From the NCBI RefSeq assembly GCF_900119495.1, contig NZ_LT632435.1:792359-856358 (forward strand): a DNA stretch of 64,000 nucleotides, given 5' to 3'. The notes below the pieces were generated by a model that saw only the letters and a list, made by a program, of their open reading frames with translations, searched no databases and was not told the DNA's origin. How positions within the stretch are numbered: the stretch's first letter is position 1; each line of letters begins with the position of its first letter. The translations under genes and the position numbers were made by a program. Source of the DNA: Arcanobacterium urinimassiliense (GTDB lineage Bacteria > Actinomycetota > Actinomycetes > Actinomycetales > Actinomycetaceae). This document shows, in pieces, positions 6,462 to 17,680 of the stretch.

Positions 6462-7517
6462 ATGGGCAGCGAAAATCCACATTTTCATTCGCATCTACAT
6501 TCAAATGGTGAGTCGGCGGAGCACTCCCATTCAGCCGAGCACTCGCATTCGCATTCTCACTTTCATTCCCATTCGCATATTCCTACTGGCGATTCGGCTG
6601 CTTCTCCAATTGCCACGACTGCGAAATATCGGATTCGTTTGGCAATAGTCTTTGGTATTTATCTTTGCATAATAATCGGCCAGTTATTTACTTCTTGGCT
6701 CACCGGCAGTTTGGCTCTATTAGCGGAAGCCATGCATATGGGCGTAGATAGCGGGGGAATTCTGGTAGCTTTAATTGCCTCGATTCTTTCCACGCGTAAA
6801 GCTACAAAAAAACTCACTTATGGAATGATGCGGGCGGAAATTCTAGCTGTGCTCATTAATTGCGTACTACTTTTCGTAGTGGGAACTTTCATTCTTATTG
6901 AAGCGGTTCAGCACTGGCTAAACCCCCCAGCCATTGCCAGTACTGGCGTCATAATTATGGCGGTAATCGGCCTTAGCGCCTCCACGCTTTCTTTCTTTAT
7001 TCTCCGGCAAGGAGCAGCAGAGAGCTTAAATATGAAGGCTGCTTTCTTGGAAGTAATAAGCGACGGCATCGGTTCGCTGGCAATTATTCTTTCTGCGGTA
7101 CTTAACCTCACGCTGGGGTGGCGGCGCGCGGATGCGGTAGCGGCAGCGCTGATTGGGATATTTGTGTTGCCTCGTGCTTTTGCGTTGCTCCGGCAGGCGG
7201 TAAATATAATTTTACAAGGAGTGCCGGCGGGGATTGATTTACAGCAGCTGCTTGCGGAGATAAAAGAGATAGACGGAGTAGCAGAGGTACATTCTTTACA
7301 CGTATGGGCACTCACGAGTGGGGTGCCGGTCATGAGCGCTCATATAGTGGTAGATGCGGATGCATCTTCTCTTCCGGAACGCACCCGGATACTCGACGAA
7401 GCTACCGGCCATATGCGCCGTTGTTTCCATATTGAGCACGTGACCATTCAAATTGAAGAGCCCGGGCATCTCGATCATGAGGGTGTGCTCAACCGGGAAA
7501 TACAGGAACTAGAGTAG
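6462..7517 (+). CDS. Cation diffusion facilitator (zinc/divalent metal exporter)
   Basis: Six-helix proton-coupled metal exporter of the CDF family (CzcD/ZitB-like), 351 aa. The first 40 residues are extremely His-rich (repeated HSHS, HFHSH), a likely metal-binding tail. The first transport-site motif is HMGVD in TM2. The TM5 position that is HxxxD in ZitB/CzcD reads EVISD, with Glu in place of His, which may shift metal preference. A cytoplasmic ferredoxin-like domain occupies the last 80 residues. A strong GAGGAGGT site precedes ATG 6462. Confidence 0.9.
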   Translation: MGSENPHFHSHLHSNGESAEHSHSAEHSHSHSHFHSHSHIPTGDSAASPIATTAKYRIRLAIVFGIYLCIIIGQLFTSWLTGSLALLAEAMHMGVDSGGILVALIASILSTRKATKKLTYGMMRAEILAVLINCVLLFVVGTFILIEAVQHWLNPPAIASTGVIIMAVIGLSASTLSFFILRQGAAESLNMKAAFLEVISDGIGSLAIILSAVLNLTLGWRRADAVAAALIGIFVLPRAFALLRQAVNIILQGVPAGIDLQQLLAEIKEIDGVAEVHSLHVWALTSGVPVMSAHIVVDADASSLPERTRILDEATGHMRRCFHIEHVTIQIEEPGHLDHEGVLNREIQELE

Positions 7518-7537
7518 TGGAGCCCCGCCCCTTCCCG

Positions 7538-7543
7538 TACACT
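7538..7543 (+). promoter_or_regulatory. -10 box for a leaderless hemH transcript
   Basis: TACACT sits six bases before ATG 7550, which lacks a Shine-Dalgarno. An alternative in-frame GTG at 7517, overlapping the previous stop, has AGGA upstream and would allow coupled translation. Confidence 0.5.
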
Positions 7544-7549
7544 AGCCAT

Positions 7550-8500
7550 ATGAAATATGGGTGCCTTATAGTCGCTTTGGGGACTCCCGCATCTCCAGCT
7601 CCGGCGGATATTGCAGATTTTCTTCAGGAATTTCTTTCTGATCCGGCGGTAGTAGATTTCCCTGCTTGGCTCTGGAAGCCGATTTTGCGGCATGTAGTTT
7701 TAAAAACTCGCCCGGAAAAAATTCGCCCCCAATATGAGCATATTTGGCTGGCAGATGGCTCTCCTTTACAGGTGCATACGCAGGCACAGGCAGCAGCTCT
7801 CCAAGCTGAATTACCAGAAGTAGCAGTAGCCTATGCCAATACCTATACTGCGCCACGTATTAGTGAGACTATTGCGCGGCTCGTGGCAGAAGAGGCAGTA
7901 GAAGAATTAGTAATAATTCCGCTTTATCCGCAGTATGCTCCTTCTACGGTGTGTGATATTAGGAGGCAGGCGGAGGCTTATTGCGCCGGCGCCGAAGCTC
8001 CGCGCTTACACTGGGCAGATTCTTGGCAGATACAGGAGCAGTATGTAGCTTGGTATGCAGAAAAGCTCCAGGAAAAAATTTCGCGAGAAAATCCGGATAA
8101 AATTATTTTTTCTTTTCATGGGGTGCCACTCCGGGCGGCGCATGCTCCTACTAGTTATTTTCAGCAATGCGCGCAGACGGTAGCTGCGATTATGGAACGG
8201 GTGGGGGATTACCCGCATGAAATTACTTTCCAGTCTAAGTTTGGCCCGGGAAAATGGCTGCATCCGGCTACTATCGGGCGGATGCGGGAACTGCCGCGGG
8301 AAGGGGTAAAGAATATACTTTTACTTACGCCGGGCTTTTTTGCTGACTGTATTGAGACGCTTTATGAGCTGGATGTGCTAAATAAAGGCGAGTTTCAGAA
8401 GGCAGGTGGCGAAAAATTTACGCGCCTAGCTCCGCCTAATTCTGATGCTGCGGCGGGGAAAATATTGGCCGCTCTGTATCGAGAAATTCTGCCGAGTTGA
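7550..8500 (+). CDS. hemH: Ferrochelatase, E. coli-like type
   Basis: Inserts ferrous iron into a porphyrin, the end of heme synthesis. About 316 aa from ATG 7550. Landmarks are LYPQYAPSTV, the active-site FSFHGVPLR, FQSKFGPGKW and TPGFFADCIETL. These read like the gamma-proteobacterial protoporphyrin enzyme rather than the coproporphyrin-type chelatase normal in actinobacteria. No other heme-synthesis enzyme is in the window. The start at 7550 fits the family N-terminus (short lead, then LIVALGTP). GTG 7517 would add 11 residues. Confidence 0.88.
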   Translation: MKYGCLIVALGTPASPAPADIADFLQEFLSDPAVVDFPAWLWKPILRHVVLKTRPEKIRPQYEHIWLADGSPLQVHTQAQAAALQAELPEVAVAYANTYTAPRISETIARLVAEEAVEELVIIPLYPQYAPSTVCDIRRQAEAYCAGAEAPRLHWADSWQIQEQYVAWYAEKLQEKISRENPDKIIFSFHGVPLRAAHAPTSYFQQCAQTVAAIMERVGDYPHEITFQSKFGPGKWLHPATIGRMRELPREGVKNILLLTPGFFADCIETLYELDVLNKGEFQKAGGEKFTRLAPPNSDAAAGKILAALYREILPS

Positions 8501-8876
8501 GTTATTTCGCTAAATTTACTTCACTGTGTTGCGCTTGGCGCTTTTTAGCGCGCGAAATGGGGACTCTTCGCAGCCCTATTATTTTGTAAAAAATATATTA
8601 ATTGCGTTGTGTTGGAGATAAAGTCTGAAAAATCCAATTAGTAATTACAAAGTAATTTTCAAACGGGGGGGGGGTAGGTGTGGTGGATTTATTTTATAGT
8701 CCCAGGTTGTGGTCGTATTGCGGGTTTTTAGGTGCGGAATTTTTTACAAAATTGCATATTGCTTGCCGGAAAAAGAATTTAAATTTATATTTAATTTGTA
8801 GGACTAAAGTGCTATCAAATATGGTGATGCACTGGAAGTTTTAATTGAATTAATTTCATTCCTGAGGGGATAGATT
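8501..8876. other. Upstream region of the pilus operon (376 bases)
   Basis: AT-rich, no gene. GCGC-TTG-GCGC followed by five T (8531-8546) could be a weak terminator for hemH. The striking element is the G-run at 8665-8674, listed separately. TATAGT at 8695-8700 could be a -10 box whose -35 position would overlap the end of that run. Further downstream TTGCAT and a T/A-rich stretch (about 8751-8800) offer a second promoter candidate. The start site cannot be fixed by reading. Confidence 0.5.
8665..8674 (+). repeat. Homopolymeric G10 tract, possible phase-variation switch
   Basis: Ten consecutive G, about 200 bases before the pilus tip gene. G-runs of this length are prone to slipped-strand length change and in several pathogens switch surface genes on and off by altering promoter spacing. 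I noticed no comparable G-run elsewhere in the window. Confidence 0.85.
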
Positions 8877-11800
8877 TTGAGCGCGCGTAAATTTCTCGCA
8901 GGTATCTCGGCGGTAGCAGTAGGGTTCTCCGGTCTGTTAATCGGGGGAATAGCTGTGGGCGCTGATGAGCCGAATGATCGTGGTACTACAGTGGAGAATT
9001 CTGCTCCAGCTGCGGAAAATACGGAGAGCGGTGCTGGTAATAAAGCCAGTGTCGGTAAGAGTGCGGAACACGCTAATGAGCAGGCAGATTCGGCGGAAAA
9101 AGAAAATGCGCGCAAATCTGGAGCGCAGCCGGATGCTCTTAGTCAGCGGCTTTCCCCGCTTTATTTAGCGCAAGGTGCTGGGACTACCCGCAGTGAAGGA
9201 GATGTGCCGTCTCCCGATACCGGCGATGTAGGCACGCCCGGTCCAATTACTACTTCCCGTACCACTCCGGTGGAAGCCGATGCTTTGGCGCCGAATCCGG
9301 GCCCCGAATCTACTGTACGATGGGCAGATTGTAGCGATTATCCCGATACTGCGCGGGCTTATGGTTATCCCTATATACAAAACGGCGTCGAGCTCACTAA
9401 TGCGTCAAATTCTTGCCGCGGTGGTAAAAATGTACTCTCCGGGCGCCTCTACTATACGAATGCGCTTTCTTTTGATGCTACTTCTACAGATGCTGGCCGG
9501 TTAAATGGCTATAAAGTGTATGTGCAGTGGCAAGATAACGATGGTTCGGTATCCCCAGTGTACTGGGCAGTCACTAGATATTTATCAGGATCGCAAGGTG
9601 GAGATGGTTCCTATGCCTTCTACCTTCCGGAGTGGACGGATTCGCGGGGAGTAGTCCACAGCCCCAAGTTCTCAGCTTTAATAGGAAATATTCAATACAA
9701 ACTTTGGATTGCGCCTAATCAGAAAGGTCCCGGTGGCGGTAACTTAGTAGCAGTACGCCAAGGCCCCGGTAACGGTATTGGTTTTAAAAATGGCGGGCGC
9801 GATGGCTACTTTGGCTCTTTCTTCTTAGAATCCGCTAATTTGCAGCGCACCTCTATCTGGGCTTGGGAAGTACCACAGGATTATATGACTGCCGATACCT
9901 GGAAAGTGGACGGTAAAGATTACGTAAGTGATCTCAATATGGGCGATAGCGGTCTGCTCGGTTCGCCTCTGCAAAATAAGCCAGTACTTTCTGGAGATGT
10001 CTGGTGGGAAACAAAAGAGCCAGATCTTTCAGTTAATATGCCTACTTCCACTCGGGAGTATACTGCCGGAGGTAGTGATATCTGGGTGGTATCTTCGGTG
10101 CTGACCCCAGCAGGCGTATCGGCAATTCAGTGCGGGCCAAAATGGGATCCCCGCTTGGCTGGTGGCAAAGGCGACTGGAGTGATATTCCAGCTTGGAATT
10201 TAAAGACTAATACTTGTATACAAGATCCAAATGCTCCAAGATGGGATTCACGTAGCTACCAGGTAGCGGCAGTGAAATTCCAAAAGAAACTGCTCAGCGA
10301 AAATCGCTCTTTGATTGCGCAGACTGTGGCTTCTTATGTGCATCCGCAGCCAGGAAATCCGGAAAATTCTCCAGTTGGTTATTATGTGGCGCGCTTTGAT
10401 GAGAAGTTAGTCAAATCAATTCCGCAGGGGGCGGTGCCGAAAATGGGTGACGGCATTTTCCAATATGCGGTGCGCTTAGCGTATGAAACTGATGAACAGG
10501 GGAATATGCGCCGCGATAAAAATAATGCGCCGGTGCTGAAATATGATGAGAATGGCCGACCCATCGTCACCGAAATTGTGCAAGAAATTTCGGCTACTTC
10601 TGCTCCTTTCTACGGGCCACGCACCCGGTGGGCCACTTCGGCTTATCAATACAATAGTTCTGCCCATCCGATGGATGATATGAACCATGCTCTGTATGCC
10701 AATCAGTGGTCCGCAATTGATGTGACTAATTTCGATACCCATGAAAAGAAAGCTGCTCCGGGCGATATTGCTCAACTCAATGTAGATCACCACTATGTAA
10801 AAGGGCAGAAAGTTTGGATTCGCTGGCGCGATCAAAACGGTAAAATTGTAATGTCACCTAATGCGGATGAGAACCCGGAGATTCTCAATCCAGGCTGTTG
10901 GTACTATGGGCCGAATGATGAAGATCCTAGTGATAATGCGAGTGCGGCCACTCCAGGTAATCCCAATGGTGGGAAAGGCGGTTGCTGGCTGCAAGTGCCG
11001 AAGAATTTGAGTGGAGAGAAATTATATACCGCCGAATTAGTGGTATTCGGCGATGTAGTGGATGCCGATTCGTTCGTAGCTGTGGGCAACGGGCGCCCTG
11101 ATTACGAGTTGATTCCTTCGGCTATTGCCAATCCAAATCGCCCAGAAGATCCAAAAGATCCTTATGACAGTGCTGGTTACGGAGCGCGATTAAAGAATGT
11201 GCCGTACTGGGTAGATAATGAGGGGCACCGGATGGAGCTCTCAGTAGATAAGAATGGCAAGAAAATTCATCCGCATGGGCATTTTGGGTTGCAGAAATTC
11301 CCGGGTACCGTAACAGTTGGAAAACTGCGGAAAGATGGCGAATTTATTGATTACCATTGGAGTGAATCTGGTGGTACGGATGGCCATTTCACCATTTGTG
11401 GAAAATATGTGCGTTCTGCCGAATACAACGAAAGCTATGAATGGACTTGCGAGCCTAGCTCAGATTATGAATACGGAGAAGTGACTTATACTCCGAATCT
11501 AAATAGCCATGGTACTGGTCTCTACGAACTGCCGATGCGTTGGTATCCCACAGATGAAAATGGCAATGTACTCACCGTACAAGAAGCTCGTAATGTGTAC
11601 GGCGATATTGTCAAAGATAGTACATCGAGAGGCAAGCCCTATATTGAAATATTCGCGCCTTTCTGGGTGGAGAATCCGAATCTTAGTTACGCTTATGATT
11701 ATGACCCGCAATATGGCGAGCATACGGCGCATCCGCTGCAGACGGTCACTTTTGATATCCAGTGGAATGAAACTAATACTATGGCCGGAGATAATCGTTT

Positions 11801-12731
11801 CCCAGGTTCTTGGCCACAAGGTGTGGGGGTAAATCGAGTACAGAAATGTAAGATACCGGAACCTGGAGTGAAAACGGCAGTGCCTTTCCCCGAAGAAATG
11901 CGCGATTGGGTACTACTTAACCCCGGGAAAGTAAATAGTAACGGCGATTTGGGCAGTGTGGACTGGAAGACTAATCCCGATAATGCTTGCCAGCTAAAAG
12001 TGAAAGTACCGCCCACGGCTAAGAATGGCGATATTATAAAAATTCCGGTGCAGGTCATCTATCGACGCCAAGATACTAAAGCTACTACGACCGATATCGC
12101 TATTGCCACGGTAAAAGTGTGGGCACCGCAGGCGAGTGGTACGGTAATTTACGATCAAAACGGCAATGCGGTAATTGGGGCCAGTGAACCCAATGAAATT
12201 GGGCTCCCCGGCGTGCAGGTAGTGGCAAAGGCGAGTATTCCCTATACTGATATATTCGGCAGAGCTACCAAGAACGGGAAGCGACTCATGGCGGAAGTGA
12301 CCCGAATTGGAAATACCGATAAGAACGGCAAATTCGTCATCGACTCTATAGTGGCAGGTGATTGTAGAGGCAGTGATAGCGGCTCTCAATGCCCGAAAGC
12401 TGATTACAAGCTTTCGCTGAATCCGCTTTCTTTTGCCGAGCAAGGTAAAGCGCCGTGCCCAGATAACCCTGCGCAGATGTGTGATGTGCGCGTGCCGGGC
12501 GGGCCGGATCGATGGCTGGGCACGGTAATACCACCTAATCAAAAACGCCCCGTCACCGTGAGCGGGGATCCGCAGTTTACTTTCCTGCGCAAAGTGGTGG
12601 AAGATCAAGATGGTAAGCGCGAGGTGCAGTATTCCGGTACTGGGCAAAATATTCCGGTACAGATGGAATGGGGTAGCCAAGCAACTTATGACAAGGTGAA
12701 TACTCCACAATTATGGGCTGTGGTTCTCTAA
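8877..12731 (+). CDS. Pilus tip/surface adhesin, N-terminal part of a frameshifted gene
   Basis: Large secreted surface protein of a sortase-assembled pilus, 1284 aa up to an apparent frameshift. TTG start with GAGGGG seven bases upstream. A signal peptide is seen (MSARKFLAGISAVAVG, cleavage probably after VGA). Residues 30-130 are a Ser/Thr/Ala/Pro-rich stalk, followed by large beta-rich repeats. A SdrD/Cna-B-like segment lies near residues 1090-1220 (GLPGVQVVAKA, then NGKFVIDSIVAGD). The frame stops at TAA 12729, while homologous-looking sequence continues in the next frame as WFSNPRLDVQKTISK. The intact product would be about 1660 aa. It is the first gene of the pilus operon. Confidence 0.8.
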   Translation: MSARKFLAGISAVAVGFSGLLIGGIAVGADEPNDRGTTVENSAPAAENTESGAGNKASVGKSAEHANEQADSAEKENARKSGAQPDALSQRLSPLYLAQGAGTTRSEGDVPSPDTGDVGTPGPITTSRTTPVEADALAPNPGPESTVRWADCSDYPDTARAYGYPYIQNGVELTNASNSCRGGKNVLSGRLYYTNALSFDATSTDAGRLNGYKVYVQWQDNDGSVSPVYWAVTRYLSGSQGGDGSYAFYLPEWTDSRGVVHSPKFSALIGNIQYKLWIAPNQKGPGGGNLVAVRQGPGNGIGFKNGGRDGYFGSFFLESANLQRTSIWAWEVPQDYMTADTWKVDGKDYVSDLNMGDSGLLGSPLQNKPVLSGDVWWETKEPDLSVNMPTSTREYTAGGSDIWVVSSVLTPAGVSAIQCGPKWDPRLAGGKGDWSDIPAWNLKTNTCIQDPNAPRWDSRSYQVAAVKFQKKLLSENRSLIAQTVASYVHPQPGNPENSPVGYYVARFDEKLVKSIPQGAVPKMGDGIFQYAVRLAYETDEQGNMRRDKNNAPVLKYDENGRPIVTEIVQEISATSAPFYGPRTRWATSAYQYNSSAHPMDDMNHALYANQWSAIDVTNFDTHEKKAAPGDIAQLNVDHHYVKGQKVWIRWRDQNGKIVMSPNADENPEILNPGCWYYGPNDEDPSDNASAATPGNPNGGKGGCWLQVPKNLSGEKLYTAELVVFGDVVDADSFVAVGNGRPDYELIPSAIANPNRPEDPKDPYDSAGYGARLKNVPYWVDNEGHRMELSVDKNGKKIHPHGHFGLQKFPGTVTVGKLRKDGEFIDYHWSESGGTDGHFTICGKYVRSAEYNESYEWTCEPSSDYEYGEVTYTPNLNSHGTGLYELPMRWYPTDENGNVLTVQEARNVYGDIVKDSTSRGKPYIEIFAPFWVENPNLSYAYDYDPQYGEHTAHPLQTVTFDIQWNETNTMAGDNRFPGSWPQGVGVNRVQKCKIPEPGVKTAVPFPEEMRDWVLLNPGKVNSNGDLGSVDWKTNPDNACQLKVKVPPTAKNGDIIKIPVQVIYRRQDTKATTTDIAIATVKVWAPQASGTVIYDQNGNAVIGASEPNEIGLPGVQVVAKASIPYTDIFGRATKNGKRLMAEVTRIGNTDKNGKFVIDSIVAGDCRGSDSGSQCPKADYKLSLNPLSFAEQGKAPCPDNPAQMCDVRVPGGPDRWLGTVIPPNQKRPVTVSGDPQFTFLRKVVEDQDGKREVQYSGTGQNIPVQMEWGSQATYDKVNTPQLWAVVL

Positions 12732-12744
12732 TCCGCGCTTAGAC

Positions 12745-13869
12745 GTGCAGAAAACTATTTCCAAAGTTAATGGGGCAGATCCAGATGGTACCCTCGCCTT
12801 GCGCCCCGGAGATAAAGTGGAATACCGAATTGAAGCGGTAAATAAAGGCAATACTCCGGTAGGGGAAGTGACGTTCTTAGACCAGTTGCTGGTGCCTATG
12901 GAGTGCGGCGTAAATGATAGTAAAGATGCTTGGGTGCCCAATCCCTTACAAGATGGAGAATTAGTCTGCAGTAAGTGGAAGAAAGTTGATGCAGCGCATC
13001 CAGATTTGCATATTACGGCCAGTGCGGGAGTGGATATAAGTAATTTGGAGAATATTACGCTCCGCCCTGGCGATAAATTAATTGCATCTGGTACTTATAC
13101 GGTGCAAGAAGATGACGCTCGTACCGGTGCCGTATTGAACCACGCCTTTGTATTTGCGAAAGAAGGATTCCCACCTCCCGCAGATCCCTGGAAAGTTGGC
13201 TATGTAGAGGGGCGGAGTAGCGTACGGAGTGAAGCAAAGCGCGATATGAGTGTCTGCCTAGTGAAAGTGGCCCACGATGTGCCGGCCGATAAAGGAGCTC
13301 CGGCTGCGGGTGGAGATAACACTTTGCCTGAGTGTAAGCATATTGGGCTTACGGCAGAGACTCCGAAAGATTCGTTGCTGCAGAATAAGCGCCTAGCTGG
13401 TGCAGAATTTACTCTCTACGAAGTAGACGATAATGGGCAGAAGATTGTAGATGCCTCAGGCAACCCCACTAAGTCTTATCCGGCGCGCCTAAATGGACAG
13501 GGTGTACTAGTGGCGACGCGGGTGCCGGCTGGTCAATATCTACTTGAAGAGCAGAAAGCACCTGCTGGGTATCAGCTACTTCCGAGTGCTTTGGCACTGC
13601 GGCTGTTCTGGGATGATTCCGCTCCGCGGGGCGTGGCAAAAGCCGAATTTGCTTTTAAAGGCGTGGTGAGCACCAGTGAAAGCGCACAGGTGCTGAGTAG
13701 CGGAAGTATCGATGAACCGGTGGAAATTGCCGTAGGTGATTCTCATATCGGTACGCTGCCGAAGGCAGGCAAAATAGGAGTTTTACCATTCATTATTGCG
13801 GGGGGAAGCCTCTTCCTCGCGGCTGTACTGAGCGCTCGCTCTGCGGGGCGCCGGAAGAGGCGGGGGTGA
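12745..13869 (+). CDS. Pilus tip/surface adhesin, C-terminal part with cell-wall sorting signal
   Basis: Continuation of the upstream reading frame after a +1 shift. This frame is open from about 12700, so GTG 12745 is only the first possible start and has no ribosome site. It carries a DUF11-like repeat (PGDKVEYRIEAVNKGNTP), a Cna-B-type domain with a pilin E-box-like segment (LLEEQKAPAGYQLLP), and a C-terminal sorting signal: LPKAG (13756-13770), a hydrophobic helix and a basic tail. Without restored frame the upstream product would lack any wall anchor. Together the two parts look like one Actinomyces-type tip fimbrial subunit. Confidence 0.8.
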   Translation: MQKTISKVNGADPDGTLALRPGDKVEYRIEAVNKGNTPVGEVTFLDQLLVPMECGVNDSKDAWVPNPLQDGELVCSKWKKVDAAHPDLHITASAGVDISNLENITLRPGDKLIASGTYTVQEDDARTGAVLNHAFVFAKEGFPPPADPWKVGYVEGRSSVRSEAKRDMSVCLVKVAHDVPADKGAPAAGGDNTLPECKHIGLTAETPKDSLLQNKRLAGAEFTLYEVDDNGQKIVDASGNPTKSYPARLNGQGVLVATRVPAGQYLLEEQKAPAGYQLLPSALALRLFWDDSAPRGVAKAEFAFKGVVSTSESAQVLSSGSIDEPVEIAVGDSHIGTLPKAGKIGVLPFIIAGGSLFLAAVLSARSAGRRKRRG

Positions 13870-13973: not shown

Positions 13974-15494
13974 ATGGGAAGAAGCAAGTTTTTGAGTCGC
14001 GGCACTGCCGTACTTGCCACCATTGCTCTAGGCCTGGTAGGTCTAGGAGCTTTTGGTGGAGCAGCTACGGCAGCTCCCACGGTTAATATCGATGCCAGCA
14101 AGAAAGGCAGCATTTCTGTACATAAGTACTCCGGAGATAATGCCAGCAATGCCGAGCGTACCGGTACGGAAGCTGATAAGGCTAATGTGCCAGCTGGATC
14201 TACTCCGTTAAACGATGTGACTTTCAAGCTGGAAAAGTTAAACTACGACATTACTACGCCGGATGGGTTTAAAGCAGCTGCGAAAGCTACGGTAGCTACG
14301 GCAGAAAAAGATACGAACTTTACTGCTCTTACGCAGCAGACGGCGGGAGACGGCTTAGCCAAATTTAGTAATCTGGCAGTTGGCGCCTATCTTTTGACTG
14401 AAACGGTCACTCCGGTAGGTCATATTCCAGCCGAGCCTTCCATTGTCTTTGTGCCGATGACGAAGCCAGATGGTACGGGCTGGAATTACGATATACATGT
14501 ATATCCGAAGAATAAGAAGACTACTGATAATCCGGTAAAGACCGATATCACGCCGAAAGATAAGATAATTACGGTAGGTCAGTACATTTCTTATCAGATT
14601 ACAAAGACTCTACCGAAGGCTGCTGAGGATCCTAATACGAACTTCAGCAAGTTCGTCTTTGTGGACGACCTTTCCAATCACCAGTATCTGGAATTAGATG
14701 CAGCAAAGCTGAATCTGAAGTTAATGGTGGGGGATGCTGAATATAAAGTAAATGACGATTACACAAAAGACACTACGGGCGGCAAGCTTACTGTAACCCT
14801 TACCGAAGAGGGCTTGGCGAAGATGACGCAAGCTAAGCGGGCTGCCGGAGCGGCTGACGTGACCGCTACGCTGACCTTCGATGCAAAAGTGAAGGCGTTG
14901 CCGCCATTTGATTCTGCTAACGATAAGGGCATGATTATCAACGTTGCCTCTACCATCACCAATAACGGTACTACCTCTACGGATGTCACCCAGAATACGG
15001 ATCCGAGTAGCGGAGGAAAGACCCAATTTGGAAATATCAAGATCAAGAAGATCAATGCAAATGGCGAAGCTCTAGCTAAAGCAGAATTCCAATTGTACGA
15101 GTGCGCAGCTGATGGAACAGCTACTGGCGATCCAATTAAAGCGGGCGCACAGGGTACAGAAGATACGTTTACCACTGCTACTGGCACTGGTGAAGCAACT
15201 ATCACGGGTGTGCGTGCTGGTGATAATTTGAAACTCTGCTTAGTGGAGAAGAAAGCTCCAGAAGGATACCAGCTGCTGCCGAAGCCGGCACAGGTAGACT
15301 TCACTCCGGATATTGTAAAGGCTGCGGCTGATCTCACCGTTGTTGCGCAAGTGAAAAACGAAGTAGATGACGGAAGCATCTTCGGGAAACTGCCTCTCAC
15401 TGGTGGAGCCGGTGTAGCTTTGATCATTATTCTGGGCGGTGCAGTACTAGGCGGAGCTGTATATTCGGCACGCCGGGCTGCCAAGCGTTCCTAA
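13974..15494 (+). CDS. Major (shaft) pilin, SpaA/FimA type
   Basis: Backbone subunit of a covalent pilus, 506 aa. Signal peptide at residues 1-35 (cleavage near ATAAP). The pilin motif IHVYPKN (about residues 172-178) provides the lysine that sortase links to the next subunit. The E-box LVEKKAPEGY (about 423-432) supports isopeptide bonds. Sorting signal is LPLTG near the C-terminus, then a helix and ARRAAKRS. AAGGAAAG precedes ATG 13974. A small palindrome (TCGGAaaTCCGA, 13945-13956) between tip and shaft genes may uncouple their expression, as shaft subunits are needed in excess. Confidence 0.93.
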   Translation: MGRSKFLSRGTAVLATIALGLVGLGAFGGAATAAPTVNIDASKKGSISVHKYSGDNASNAERTGTEADKANVPAGSTPLNDVTFKLEKLNYDITTPDGFKAAAKATVATAEKDTNFTALTQQTAGDGLAKFSNLAVGAYLLTETVTPVGHIPAEPSIVFVPMTKPDGTGWNYDIHVYPKNKKTTDNPVKTDITPKDKIITVGQYISYQITKTLPKAAEDPNTNFSKFVFVDDLSNHQYLELDAAKLNLKLMVGDAEYKVNDDYTKDTTGGKLTVTLTEEGLAKMTQAKRAAGAADVTATLTFDAKVKALPPFDSANDKGMIINVASTITNNGTTSTDVTQNTDPSSGGKTQFGNIKIKKINANGEALAKAEFQLYECAADGTATGDPIKAGAQGTEDTFTTATGTGEATITGVRAGDNLKLCLVEKKAPEGYQLLPKPAQVDFTPDIVKAAADLTVVAQVKNEVDDGSIFGKLPLTGGAGVALIIILGGAVLGGAVYSARRAAKRS

Positions 15495-15543: not shown

Positions 15544-16626
15544 ATGGGAAAAATTGATTTAGCAGCACCGGGAATGCCGCGGCATCGCAGCCGGATAAAT
15601 CGTTTCCGGAAAGGTAATGCGGCGGCAGCGCTGAGCGGGGCAGATCGGATCGGAGAGCCGAAAACTGTCCCTCGGCAAGATTCTGGGAATAAATCAATTA
15701 GAGCTTTCCTACTTCCCCTCCTTTTACTCTTAATCGGTTTAGGAATAATTCTCTATCCGCTGGTCGCCACCCAGATTGGTAACTGGGAACGGGCACGTAT
15801 AGCGCAGAATTATTCCCAAGAAATAGTCAGCGTAGATAATAGTGATCTGGAAGAAGTGATTCAGGCAGCTCGCGCCTATAACCAGCGCAATGCGGGAGCG
15901 CCTATTTTGGATCCGTGGTTAGCTCGGGTGGCGAAAGATAATCTTGCCTATCAAGAGTATTTGCAGAAGCTGGCAATTCTTCCAGAGATGGGGCGGCTCC
16001 GCATCCCAGCTATAAAAGTTGATTTACCTATTTATCACGGCACTGACAATAAAACTCTAGAAAGAGGAGTGGGGCATCTCTACGGCACCGATTTACCTAT
16101 TGGAGATACTCCTTCGCATAGTGTGCTCACTGCCCATTCTGGTTTGAGTAGTGCTACGCTTTTTGACAACTTAACTGATTTGAAACCGGGAGATGTTTTC
16201 TATCTGGAAGTAGCCGGTAAACAAATGAAATACCAAGTAGTGCAAACTAAGGTGGTATTGCCAGAAGAAGTATCTTCTTTACATCAGCAGGTTGGAAAAG
16301 ATTTAGTCACCTTAATTACCTGTACTCCGTATGGAATTAATAGCCATCGCCTTATGGTCACTGGTGAAAGAGTGGAAATGGATAGCGCCGAAACTCCTTT
16401 TGCTAGTACCGCTACCTGGAACTGGCAGTGGTGGATGAGCCTTATTGTGGCAATAGTGCTGGCGGTGCTGCTGTTCTTTGCCCGCTGGCTATATAAGATG
16501 CGTAAAGAATTTCGGGAATCTCTTTCCGGCAAAGCTGCCCCCAAAATAGCTACTGCCGGCGGCGAAAACGATAAAAATCGAGAACAGATAGAGCATAATC
16601 GCCTGAGAATTTCTCGATTGATCTAG
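15544..16626 (+). CDS. srtC: Class C (pilus-polymerising) sortase
   Basis: Membrane transpeptidase that cleaves pilin sorting signals and joins subunits, 360 aa. Membrane helices lie at about residues 57-77 and 291-313. The catalytic histidine is in VLTAHSGL, and the cysteine and arginine are in TLITCTPYGINSHRLMVTG. The segment ARVAKDNLAYQEY before the core lies where class C enzymes have their lid, but a clear DPW/DPF lid motif is present slightly earlier as DPWLA. A very strong AAGGAGGGG ribosome site precedes ATG 15544. It directly follows the shaft pilin. Confidence 0.95.
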   Translation: MGKIDLAAPGMPRHRSRINRFRKGNAAAALSGADRIGEPKTVPRQDSGNKSIRAFLLPLLLLLIGLGIILYPLVATQIGNWERARIAQNYSQEIVSVDNSDLEEVIQAARAYNQRNAGAPILDPWLARVAKDNLAYQEYLQKLAILPEMGRLRIPAIKVDLPIYHGTDNKTLERGVGHLYGTDLPIGDTPSHSVLTAHSGLSSATLFDNLTDLKPGDVFYLEVAGKQMKYQVVQTKVVLPEEVSSLHQQVGKDLVTLITCTPYGINSHRLMVTGERVEMDSAETPFASTATWNWQWWMSLIVAIVLAVLLFFARWLYKMRKEFRESLSGKAAPKIATAGGENDKNREQIEHNRLRISRLI

Positions 16627-16645
16627 AAACAGAGTAGTGGAGATA

Positions 16646-17680
16646 ATGAAGACGAATATAAATTCTTCTTTGAAAATAGTGGGTGGGATACTCCTACTTT
16701 GTGCACTAATTTTTGGCACTACGCCGGCTGGTGCTGATATCTACAAGCTTCCGCATACCGTCACCGGTAATACAGAGGGGCTCGCCATCGCCAATATCTT
16801 AGACAAGCAAGGTGGTATGCAGGTGCGCCTACCCGTGCCTAATCCCGCCGATGATCATCCGGCGCCGAGCCCGGCCGGTGCGAAAGTGAGCATTGCGCAA
16901 GTGCGCGGAGTAGATTTGCGTACGGAAGCTGGCTGGCAGCAGGCGAAATCTCTTACTCCCGAAAAAGCGCAGGCACAGGGCTTAGAAAAAGAAATTACGG
17001 AAACTGCCGGCGCTGATGGAAAAATTAATTTTATGGGTTTACCGATTGGGCTTTACCTGGTGCGCGAGCAAGCTCCGGCGGGGGCGGGAGCAGATTATAA
17101 AGTTTCACTGCCTTTTCTAATCACGCTGCCGATAGGAAACCCGACTGGCAGCGCTTGGGATTACTATCCGGTAGTGAATAGTAAACCAGCGGTAGAAATA
17201 GTGCCAAAATTTTCTCCTATTAATATCAACTTCACATCCGATAAATGCCGCATTGTAAATAAAAATATCGCTGATTTAGCGGCCCAGAATCCAGATTTGC
17301 CCGCTGGAAGTACTTTCACTATTAAAGCAGCCGCTAATAAAGTACCGGCTGGGTTAAAGATATCGACCGCCGGTAAAGTAGCGGTAGATATGAGTGCCGG
17401 CGAAGTAGCAAATGGTACTTATATAATTCCAGTGCTGGTAGCGGCCCCTAACGGGGAAAGCCAACTTGCCGATTTGACCGTAAATATAAACGGGGTGGAG
17501 TACTGCAAAGCTGCTCCGGCCCAGCCGGCACCTAAATTAGGGAAGACTGGCGCCCAGATTCTCGGTATTGCCTTGGCTGCTACGGGCGCAATTTTATTGG
17601 GAATTTTTGCGCTGCGGCGGCGGAAAAAAGCAGATGAAGATACTGAAGCAGACAAAGATAGCAAAGAATCTGAAAAATAG
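16646..17680 (+). CDS. Small LGKTG-anchored surface protein of the pilus locus (putative minor pilin)
   Basis: About 344 aa. Signal peptide up to about residue 30 (GTTPAGA). A pilin-like domain contains an E-box-like LYLVREQAPAG and a degenerate pilin motif (WDYYPVVN in place of YPKN). An Ig-like module follows (KCRIVNK to LADLTVNI). The C-terminus is LGKTG, a hydrophobic helix, RRRKK and an unusually long acidic tail. It starts 19 bases after the sortase gene (ATG 16646; GTG 16637 is an alternative). Lacking a clean pilin lysine motif, it may be the base subunit linked to the wall. Role inferred. Confidence 0.75.
   Translation: MKTNINSSLKIVGGILLLCALIFGTTPAGADIYKLPHTVTGNTEGLAIANILDKQGGMQVRLPVPNPADDHPAPSPAGAKVSIAQVRGVDLRTEAGWQQAKSLTPEKAQAQGLEKEITETAGADGKINFMGLPIGLYLVREQAPAGAGADYKVSLPFLITLPIGNPTGSAWDYYPVVNSKPAVEIVPKFSPININFTSDKCRIVNKNIADLAAQNPDLPAGSTFTIKAAANKVPAGLKISTAGKVAVDMSAGEVANGTYIIPVLVAAPNGESQLADLTVNINGVEYCKAAPAQPAPKLGKTGAQILGIALAATGAILLGIFALRRRKKADEDTEADKDSKESEK

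Follow-up and report, generated by a model that had tools for sequence, protein, structure and literature searches.

A ten-guanine tract upstream of a predicted pilus operon in Arcanobacterium urinimassiliense as a candidate slippage switch

The stretch of the Arcanobacterium urinimassiliense genome analysed here (64,000 nucleotides, hereafter the window) carries a homopolymer of ten G residues shortly before a cluster of pilus genes. The locus raises the question of whether this tract acts as a random switch of the pilus and, if so, at which step of gene expression it would do so. A preliminary description had placed the run at 8665-8674, about 200 bases before the pilus tip gene and outside the coding frame. 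Direct reading gives exactly these coordinates on the plus strand, which is the sense strand with respect to the operon; the tract ends 202 nt short of the TTG start of the tip gene at 8877, and an in-frame TAG stop codon (8871-8873) just upstream of this TTG keeps the tract out of the tip-gene frame. The intergenic region that holds the tract (8501..8876, plus strand) is 376 nt long. It extends from the ferrochelatase gene (7517..8500, plus strand), the upstream neighbour and left border of the locus, to the tip gene, whose likely ribosome-binding site, GAGGGG, was read directly at 8864..8869 (plus strand).

The downstream genes, all on the plus strand, are predicted to form a sortase-dependent pilus operon of the SpaA type, in which a major pilin, a class C sortase and an LPXTG-type protein are clustered. 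The first gene (8877..12731) encodes the N-terminal 1284 aa of the tip protein, with a signal-peptide-like start by our home-made rule; at E 0.001, neither Pfam nor NCBIfam gave a match. A probable C-terminal part of the tip follows in another frame (12745..13869) and contains SpaA/DUF7507 domains and an LPKAG sorting signal. Next come a major pilin of the SpaH/EbpB family with an LPLTG motif (13974..15494), the class C sortase (15544..16626) and a further pilin-like protein (GramPos_pilinD1) with an LGKTG-type end (16637..17680). Proteins of the operon gave matches to solved pilins and sortases. The frame of the tip gene changes within 12700-12760, at a site without a long repeat. Either the tip gene is genuinely disrupted or the sequence contains an error here; the pilus operon may therefore be decaying or misread. 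A search of the genus with the tip protein recovered it from its own genome only (1/10).

The G10 tract is the sole G/C run of at least 7 residues within the window, in which runs of 1, 2, 3, 4, 5 and 6 residues number 17351, 4561, 1018, 226, 58 and 4, respectively, followed by the single run of 10. A first-order Markov model predicts 0.08 runs of at least 10 per window, or about 2 per genome, and the latter figure speaks for the view that the homopolymer is neutral or decaying, has no effect on the pilus and is adjacent to the operon by history or chance. The division of the tip gene between two frames and the lack of a clear promoter at the tract agree with this view. However, the run-length background drops faster than the first-order model, since 20 control regions of the same genus (400 kb; 6 of the 20 from the window's own genome, none from genomes G005 or G007) contain no run of more than 7 residues and a single one of that length, next to 296 of 5 and 15 of 6. 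Moreover, tracts of this kind are associated with pilus and surface genes, as described below, and we consider a neutral homopolymer to be a somewhat unlikely account of the locus.

The entire 1.68-Mb assembly contains nine G/C runs of at least 7 (four of 7, one of 8, one of 9 and three of 10). Four, the window tract among them, are of at least 9, and there is one A/T run of at least 9. The G10 tract exceeds the background, and its length falls within the range of at least 8 that is reported to slip (PMC11287997). A sequencing error could also have generated the run, and the authors of a Bifidobacterium study warn that database sequences may give homopolymer lengths incorrectly (PMC9187656). 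Nevertheless, the tract lies within a continuous stretch of sequence, and in other species, similar tracts precede pilus and surface genes; an assembly artefact is thus extremely improbable. The exact count of ten G residues may still be wrong.

The preliminary description had proposed the run as a candidate slippage tract of the pilus operon, and comparison across the genus sustains this proposal, as poly-G recurs upstream of pilus and surface genes. Class C sortase yielded 24 matches in ten same-genus genomes, of which 20 fall into 17 clusters with complete upstream DNA; loci L062, L064, L076 and L081, which are truncated by contig ends in the first gene or upstream of it, were omitted. The starts of the first genes were picked by hand from the list of open reading frames (ORFs). 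A sense-strand run of at least 8 G residues in the 400 nt preceding the first gene was found in 7/17 pilus clusters, compared to 0/301 control ORFs and 0/131 control ORFs with at least 150 nt of free upstream DNA. The tract-bearing clusters are those of the window (G10), L061 (G10), L079 (G9), L073 (G9 and G8), L065 (G8), L066 (G8) and L063 (G8); the L063 tract has mirrored C-runs nearby and was kept only in the mechanical count of 7/17. Because the window had been picked for its tract, the fair count is 6/16 (p 6e-9 against the 301 controls and 6e-7 against the 131). When the window, L063 and one member of the L061/L079 pair are all left out, the count is 4/14 (p 2e-6 and 6e-5, respectively); dropping one of this orthologous pair is the only correction for kinship among the genomes in these p values. 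The other 10/17 clusters lack such a tract, which counts against the explanation preferred below.

The orthologous operons L061 and L079, which belong to two species, have retained the tract as G10 and G9, respectively. By eye, it is located in a better-conserved block, and the DNA between this block and the start region is poorly conserved. Several other runs were not counted: the C-runs upstream of L069 and L070 are, by eye, arms of terminator-like hairpins, and the G9 of L060 is 1.26 kb from its pilus operon. The omitted L062 begins with a G13 before its tip gene, which is suggestive and uncounted owing to the contig start.

The survey was extended to all 89 distinct tracts of at least 9 residues in the genus; this set contains neither tracts from genome G005 nor the L062 tract at a contig start. 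Contig ends at tracts (e.g., G004 C13 and C14; G008 C8 and C10) were excluded, as they may be sequencing artefacts. Seven of the 89 are hairpin-like, and the 82 others were analysed; 58 of these are not inside an ORF of at least 150 aa. Among genes whose start lies no more than 400 nt past a tract on the G-sense strand, 18/34 have a signal-peptide-like start, compared to 37/301 control ORFs (one-sided p 1.7e-7), as judged by a crude home-made rule that gives false positives; for the C-sense strand the figure is 7/26 (p 0.04). Behind tracts of at least 10, 12/13 genes score positive, of which L020, L083 and perhaps L087 look falsely positive. Taken together, these sequence comparisons suggest that the G10 tract is probably one of the slippery tracts which surface-protein genes of related bacteria keep for random switching.

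Three further observations may be added. In a sister species, a G10 occupies the signal-peptide region of a gene for a surface-type protein (L025:1501-1510). The ends of the G008 contigs C8 and C10 (L130 and L131) both read G16 followed by CCC, with atgggtggt before each, and may represent sequencing artefacts or heterogeneous tracts. A scan of viral contigs with a 17-base flank returned eight loci with no long G-run past the flank, and these were taken as chance matches.

The means by which the tract might act was sought in the surrounding DNA. A possible -10 box near the tract had been pointed out, and the hexamer TATAGT is indeed present at 8695-8700 (plus strand), beginning 20 nt past the tract with no -35 box at normal distance. 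It carries no weight as a promoter by itself, because hexamers with a 5/6 match to TATAAT occur at the chance rate in 8500-8876 (6 seen, 5.5 expected in shuffles). The accompanying idea that tract length would alter the spacing to this -10 box found no support: with TATAGT as the -10 box and a spacer of 17 nt, the -35 position reads GGGTAG, with 1/6 matches. The best -35/-10 pair around the tract has 7/12 matches and does not surpass shuffled flanks (p 0.64 and 0.44), so that no convincing pair of boxes flanks the window tract at 16-18 bp (7/12, p 0.44). The only sigma-70-like match in a scan of 8480-8900 is TTGCCG-17-TATATT at 8763..8791 on the plus strand (9/12 matches, 0.9 expected by chance). 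Direct footprinting of the tract is impossible, since a DNA query spanning 8440-8960 matched its own genome alone (1/10), with no match in the other nine genomes of the genus.

In relatives of the bacterium, some tracts do have a promoter-like arrangement. Among 213 genomes of the same family, TTGACA occurs 1-10 nt before a run of at least 9 G residues at 19 sites in 18 genomes, compared to two occurrences in one genome for a reversed control pattern; some of the 19 sites are near-identical pairs, and most are without a good -10 box at normal spacing. The genome of the window contains none of these sites. To judge from sequence, the placement of the tract after a predicted -35 box is thus real in relatives and absent from the window's genome. 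In L099 and L123, TTGACA-N8-Gn-TAG is found 47 and 80 nt, respectively, before a surface-type gene. Runs of at least 8 G followed by TATAAT were detected in four of the 213 genomes versus one control genome, a weak difference. In addition, two loci from two genera of the family (L173 and L180) code for similar proteins, which start with MS... and contain TSFQLAPGE; TTGACA-N6-Gn-TAG precedes them at a distance of 39-44 nt.

These arrangements bear on whether the window tract might be a classical spacer switch, located between -35 and -10 boxes that are too weak to be recognised. When 16 loci were scored for promoters, L123 (TTGACA-N8-G10-TAGCGT), L066b (TTGAAA-N4-G10-ACG-TAAAAA, spacer 17) and L010 fitted such a design at their sequenced lengths (nominal p 0.001-0.03), and L099 (TTGACA-N8-G12-TAGATT) fitted only when the length was left free (p 0.019). 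The summed scores of the 16 loci were reached by 20/1000 shuffles with length free and by 96/1000 at the sequenced length. The 19 family sites argue for the design as well, and a long leader is no obstacle to it, as 150 nt lie between the tract of L066b and the start codon. On the other hand, at least 10 of the 16 loci are individually unremarkable, most of the family sites have no good -10 box at normal spacing, and the best pair at the window performs no better than shuffled flanks. We therefore regard a spacer switch at the window, as one form of the promoter-level explanation given below, as unlikely.

Alternatively, the tract may be transcribed and act in the 5' leader, either by folding into a G-rich structure, as RNA or DNA, or by serving as a translation-start-like signal of a small ORF through which the operon is attenuated. 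In this regard, a small ORF of 54 aa (GTG start, 8680-8844) begins 5 nt after the tract, and the G10 together with the GG pairs that follow could form a two-layer G-quadruplex. Yet no ORF of at least 20 aa runs across the tract, and within 8501..8876 a consensus scan found no terminator-like site, Rfam gave no match (E up to 1) and the folding of leader-sized RNA was ordinary (z 0.56). Action in the leader is accordingly very unlikely.

The explanation we prefer, with a rough probability of 0.6, is that slippage of the G10 tract changes transcription of the pilus operon by altering distances around its promoter. Replication slippage would add or remove G residues, and the length of the tract would set the transcription of the tip, the major pilin, sortase C and the accessory pilin. 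The length would alter the distance or helical phase between parts of the promoter, or between the promoter and the DNA just upstream, which could be a weak -35 region or an activator site; the site of action would be the promoter, not the leader RNA. Such a distance effect, comparable to that described for the C-stretch of the Bordetella fim genes (PMC1891110), is favoured because the RNA-level mechanisms lack a terminator-like site, an Rfam match or unusual folding, and because some relatives place their tracts after a predicted -35 box. Several features of the locus count against this explanation. No promoter with the tract in its spacer stands out, the only sigma-70-like match sits downstream of the tract, the tip gene is divided between two frames, and the genome of the window has no TTGACA placed before a run of at least 9 G. 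Moreover, the 202 nt to the start codon put the tract in the class of more than 150 nt, to which a Bordetella study assigned a low probability of overlapping the promoter (PMC1891110).

By analogy, the window locus would join the known slippage-tract systems as a member of the upstream, non-coding type, with precedents in Bifidobacterium, Gardnerella and Bordetella. In Bifidobacterium breve UCC2003, G-tracts of 8-13 residues at the first gene of sortase-pilus clusters are reported to turn expression ON or OFF by slippage (PMC9187656), so that both cases are actinobacterial clusters for sortase-dependent pili that bear a G-tract. In the two B. breve loci studied, the tract is intragenic and switches the frame of the first pilin (PMC9187656), whereas in the window 202 nt and an in-frame stop codon intervene, and the tract is not inside the reading frame of the first pilus gene. 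The B. breve survey spanned up to 500 bp upstream, and upstream cases may therefore be among its loci; its authors also mention, without data, further G-tracts in promoter spacers (PMC9187656).

Gardnerella, likewise a member of the Actinobacteria, has G/C tracts upstream of surface genes: about 70% of those of at least 8 residues are reported to occur in the 300 bp preceding an ORF, the genes concerned commonly encoding surface-protein motifs such as LPXTG and also methyltransferases, and one tract differed in length between colonies (PMC11287997). In the available text of that report, the tracts are given no link to sortase pilus operons, nor are they shown to affect transcription (PMC11287997). 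In the Bordetella fim2, fim3 and fimX genes, a C-stretch between the activator-binding region and the -10 box alters the transcript level according to its length, and its authors favour graded effects over a threshold of distance (PMC1891110). In the window as in fim, the homopolymer is not part of the coding frame of the pilus or fimbrial gene. Unlike the Gram-negative fim system, with its mapped promoter and C-tract (PMC1891110), the window has G residues on the sense strand and a TATAGT, a hexamer type at chance level, 20 nt past the tract.

In the case of Streptococcus gallolyticus pil1, a Gram-positive pilus operon that also has a slippage-type repeat upstream, GCAGA repeats in a leader-peptide gene work together with a transcription attenuator (PMC3894217); here, neither a leader ORF spanning the tract nor a terminator was found. 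The adhesin gene nadA of Neisseria meningitidis provides a further parallel, in that a repeat near its promoter shifts the spacing of distal regulatory elements; in nadA, operators of the repressor NadR flank this repeat (PMC2791445). For the bacterial family examined here, none of the papers listed by a literature search (titles and abstract openings of open-licence PMC papers) describes such tracts. Poly-G switching of pili is documented in Bifidobacterium, and similar tracts before pilus and surface genes of a second actinobacterial genus suggest that random switching of the surface may be widespread in such bacteria; it may be easily missed because an assembly displays one length only.

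The locations of the other three G/C runs of at least 9 in this genome also speak for the preferred explanation. A G10 (L002:2345-2354; G000:C2:282844-282853) is located at the junction of two ORFs in different frames. The Pfam matches of the first (MmeI_N, MmeI_hel, and MmeI_Mtase to profile position 53) continue in those of the second (MmeI_Mtase from profile position 56, MmeI_TRD, MmeI_C), and the two ORFs, by their domains, add up to one predicted MmeI-type restriction-methyltransferase. This anatomy is that of either a candidate phase-variable restriction-modification gene or a broken one. It is tentatively possible that the genus, and in part the family, maintains a poly-G repertoire by which sortase pili, LPXTG proteins and an MmeI-type methyltransferase would each be switched independently, with a recurrent TTGACA-N1-10-Gn promoter design alongside a distal class (150-350 nt before the start codon) for pilus operons, including that of the window. 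If so, a single genome would combine random switching of the pilus with random switching of DNA methylation. The loci listed above, as well as the MmeI-type methyltransferase, are directly checkable at the level of sequencing reads. Elsewhere in the same genome, a C10 and a C9 border a stretch of 2,075 N, either an assembly gap or withheld sequence, one on each side (L001:2358-4451; G000:C2:82357-84450), and the ORF of an LPXTG/G5-domain protein begins one base after the C9.
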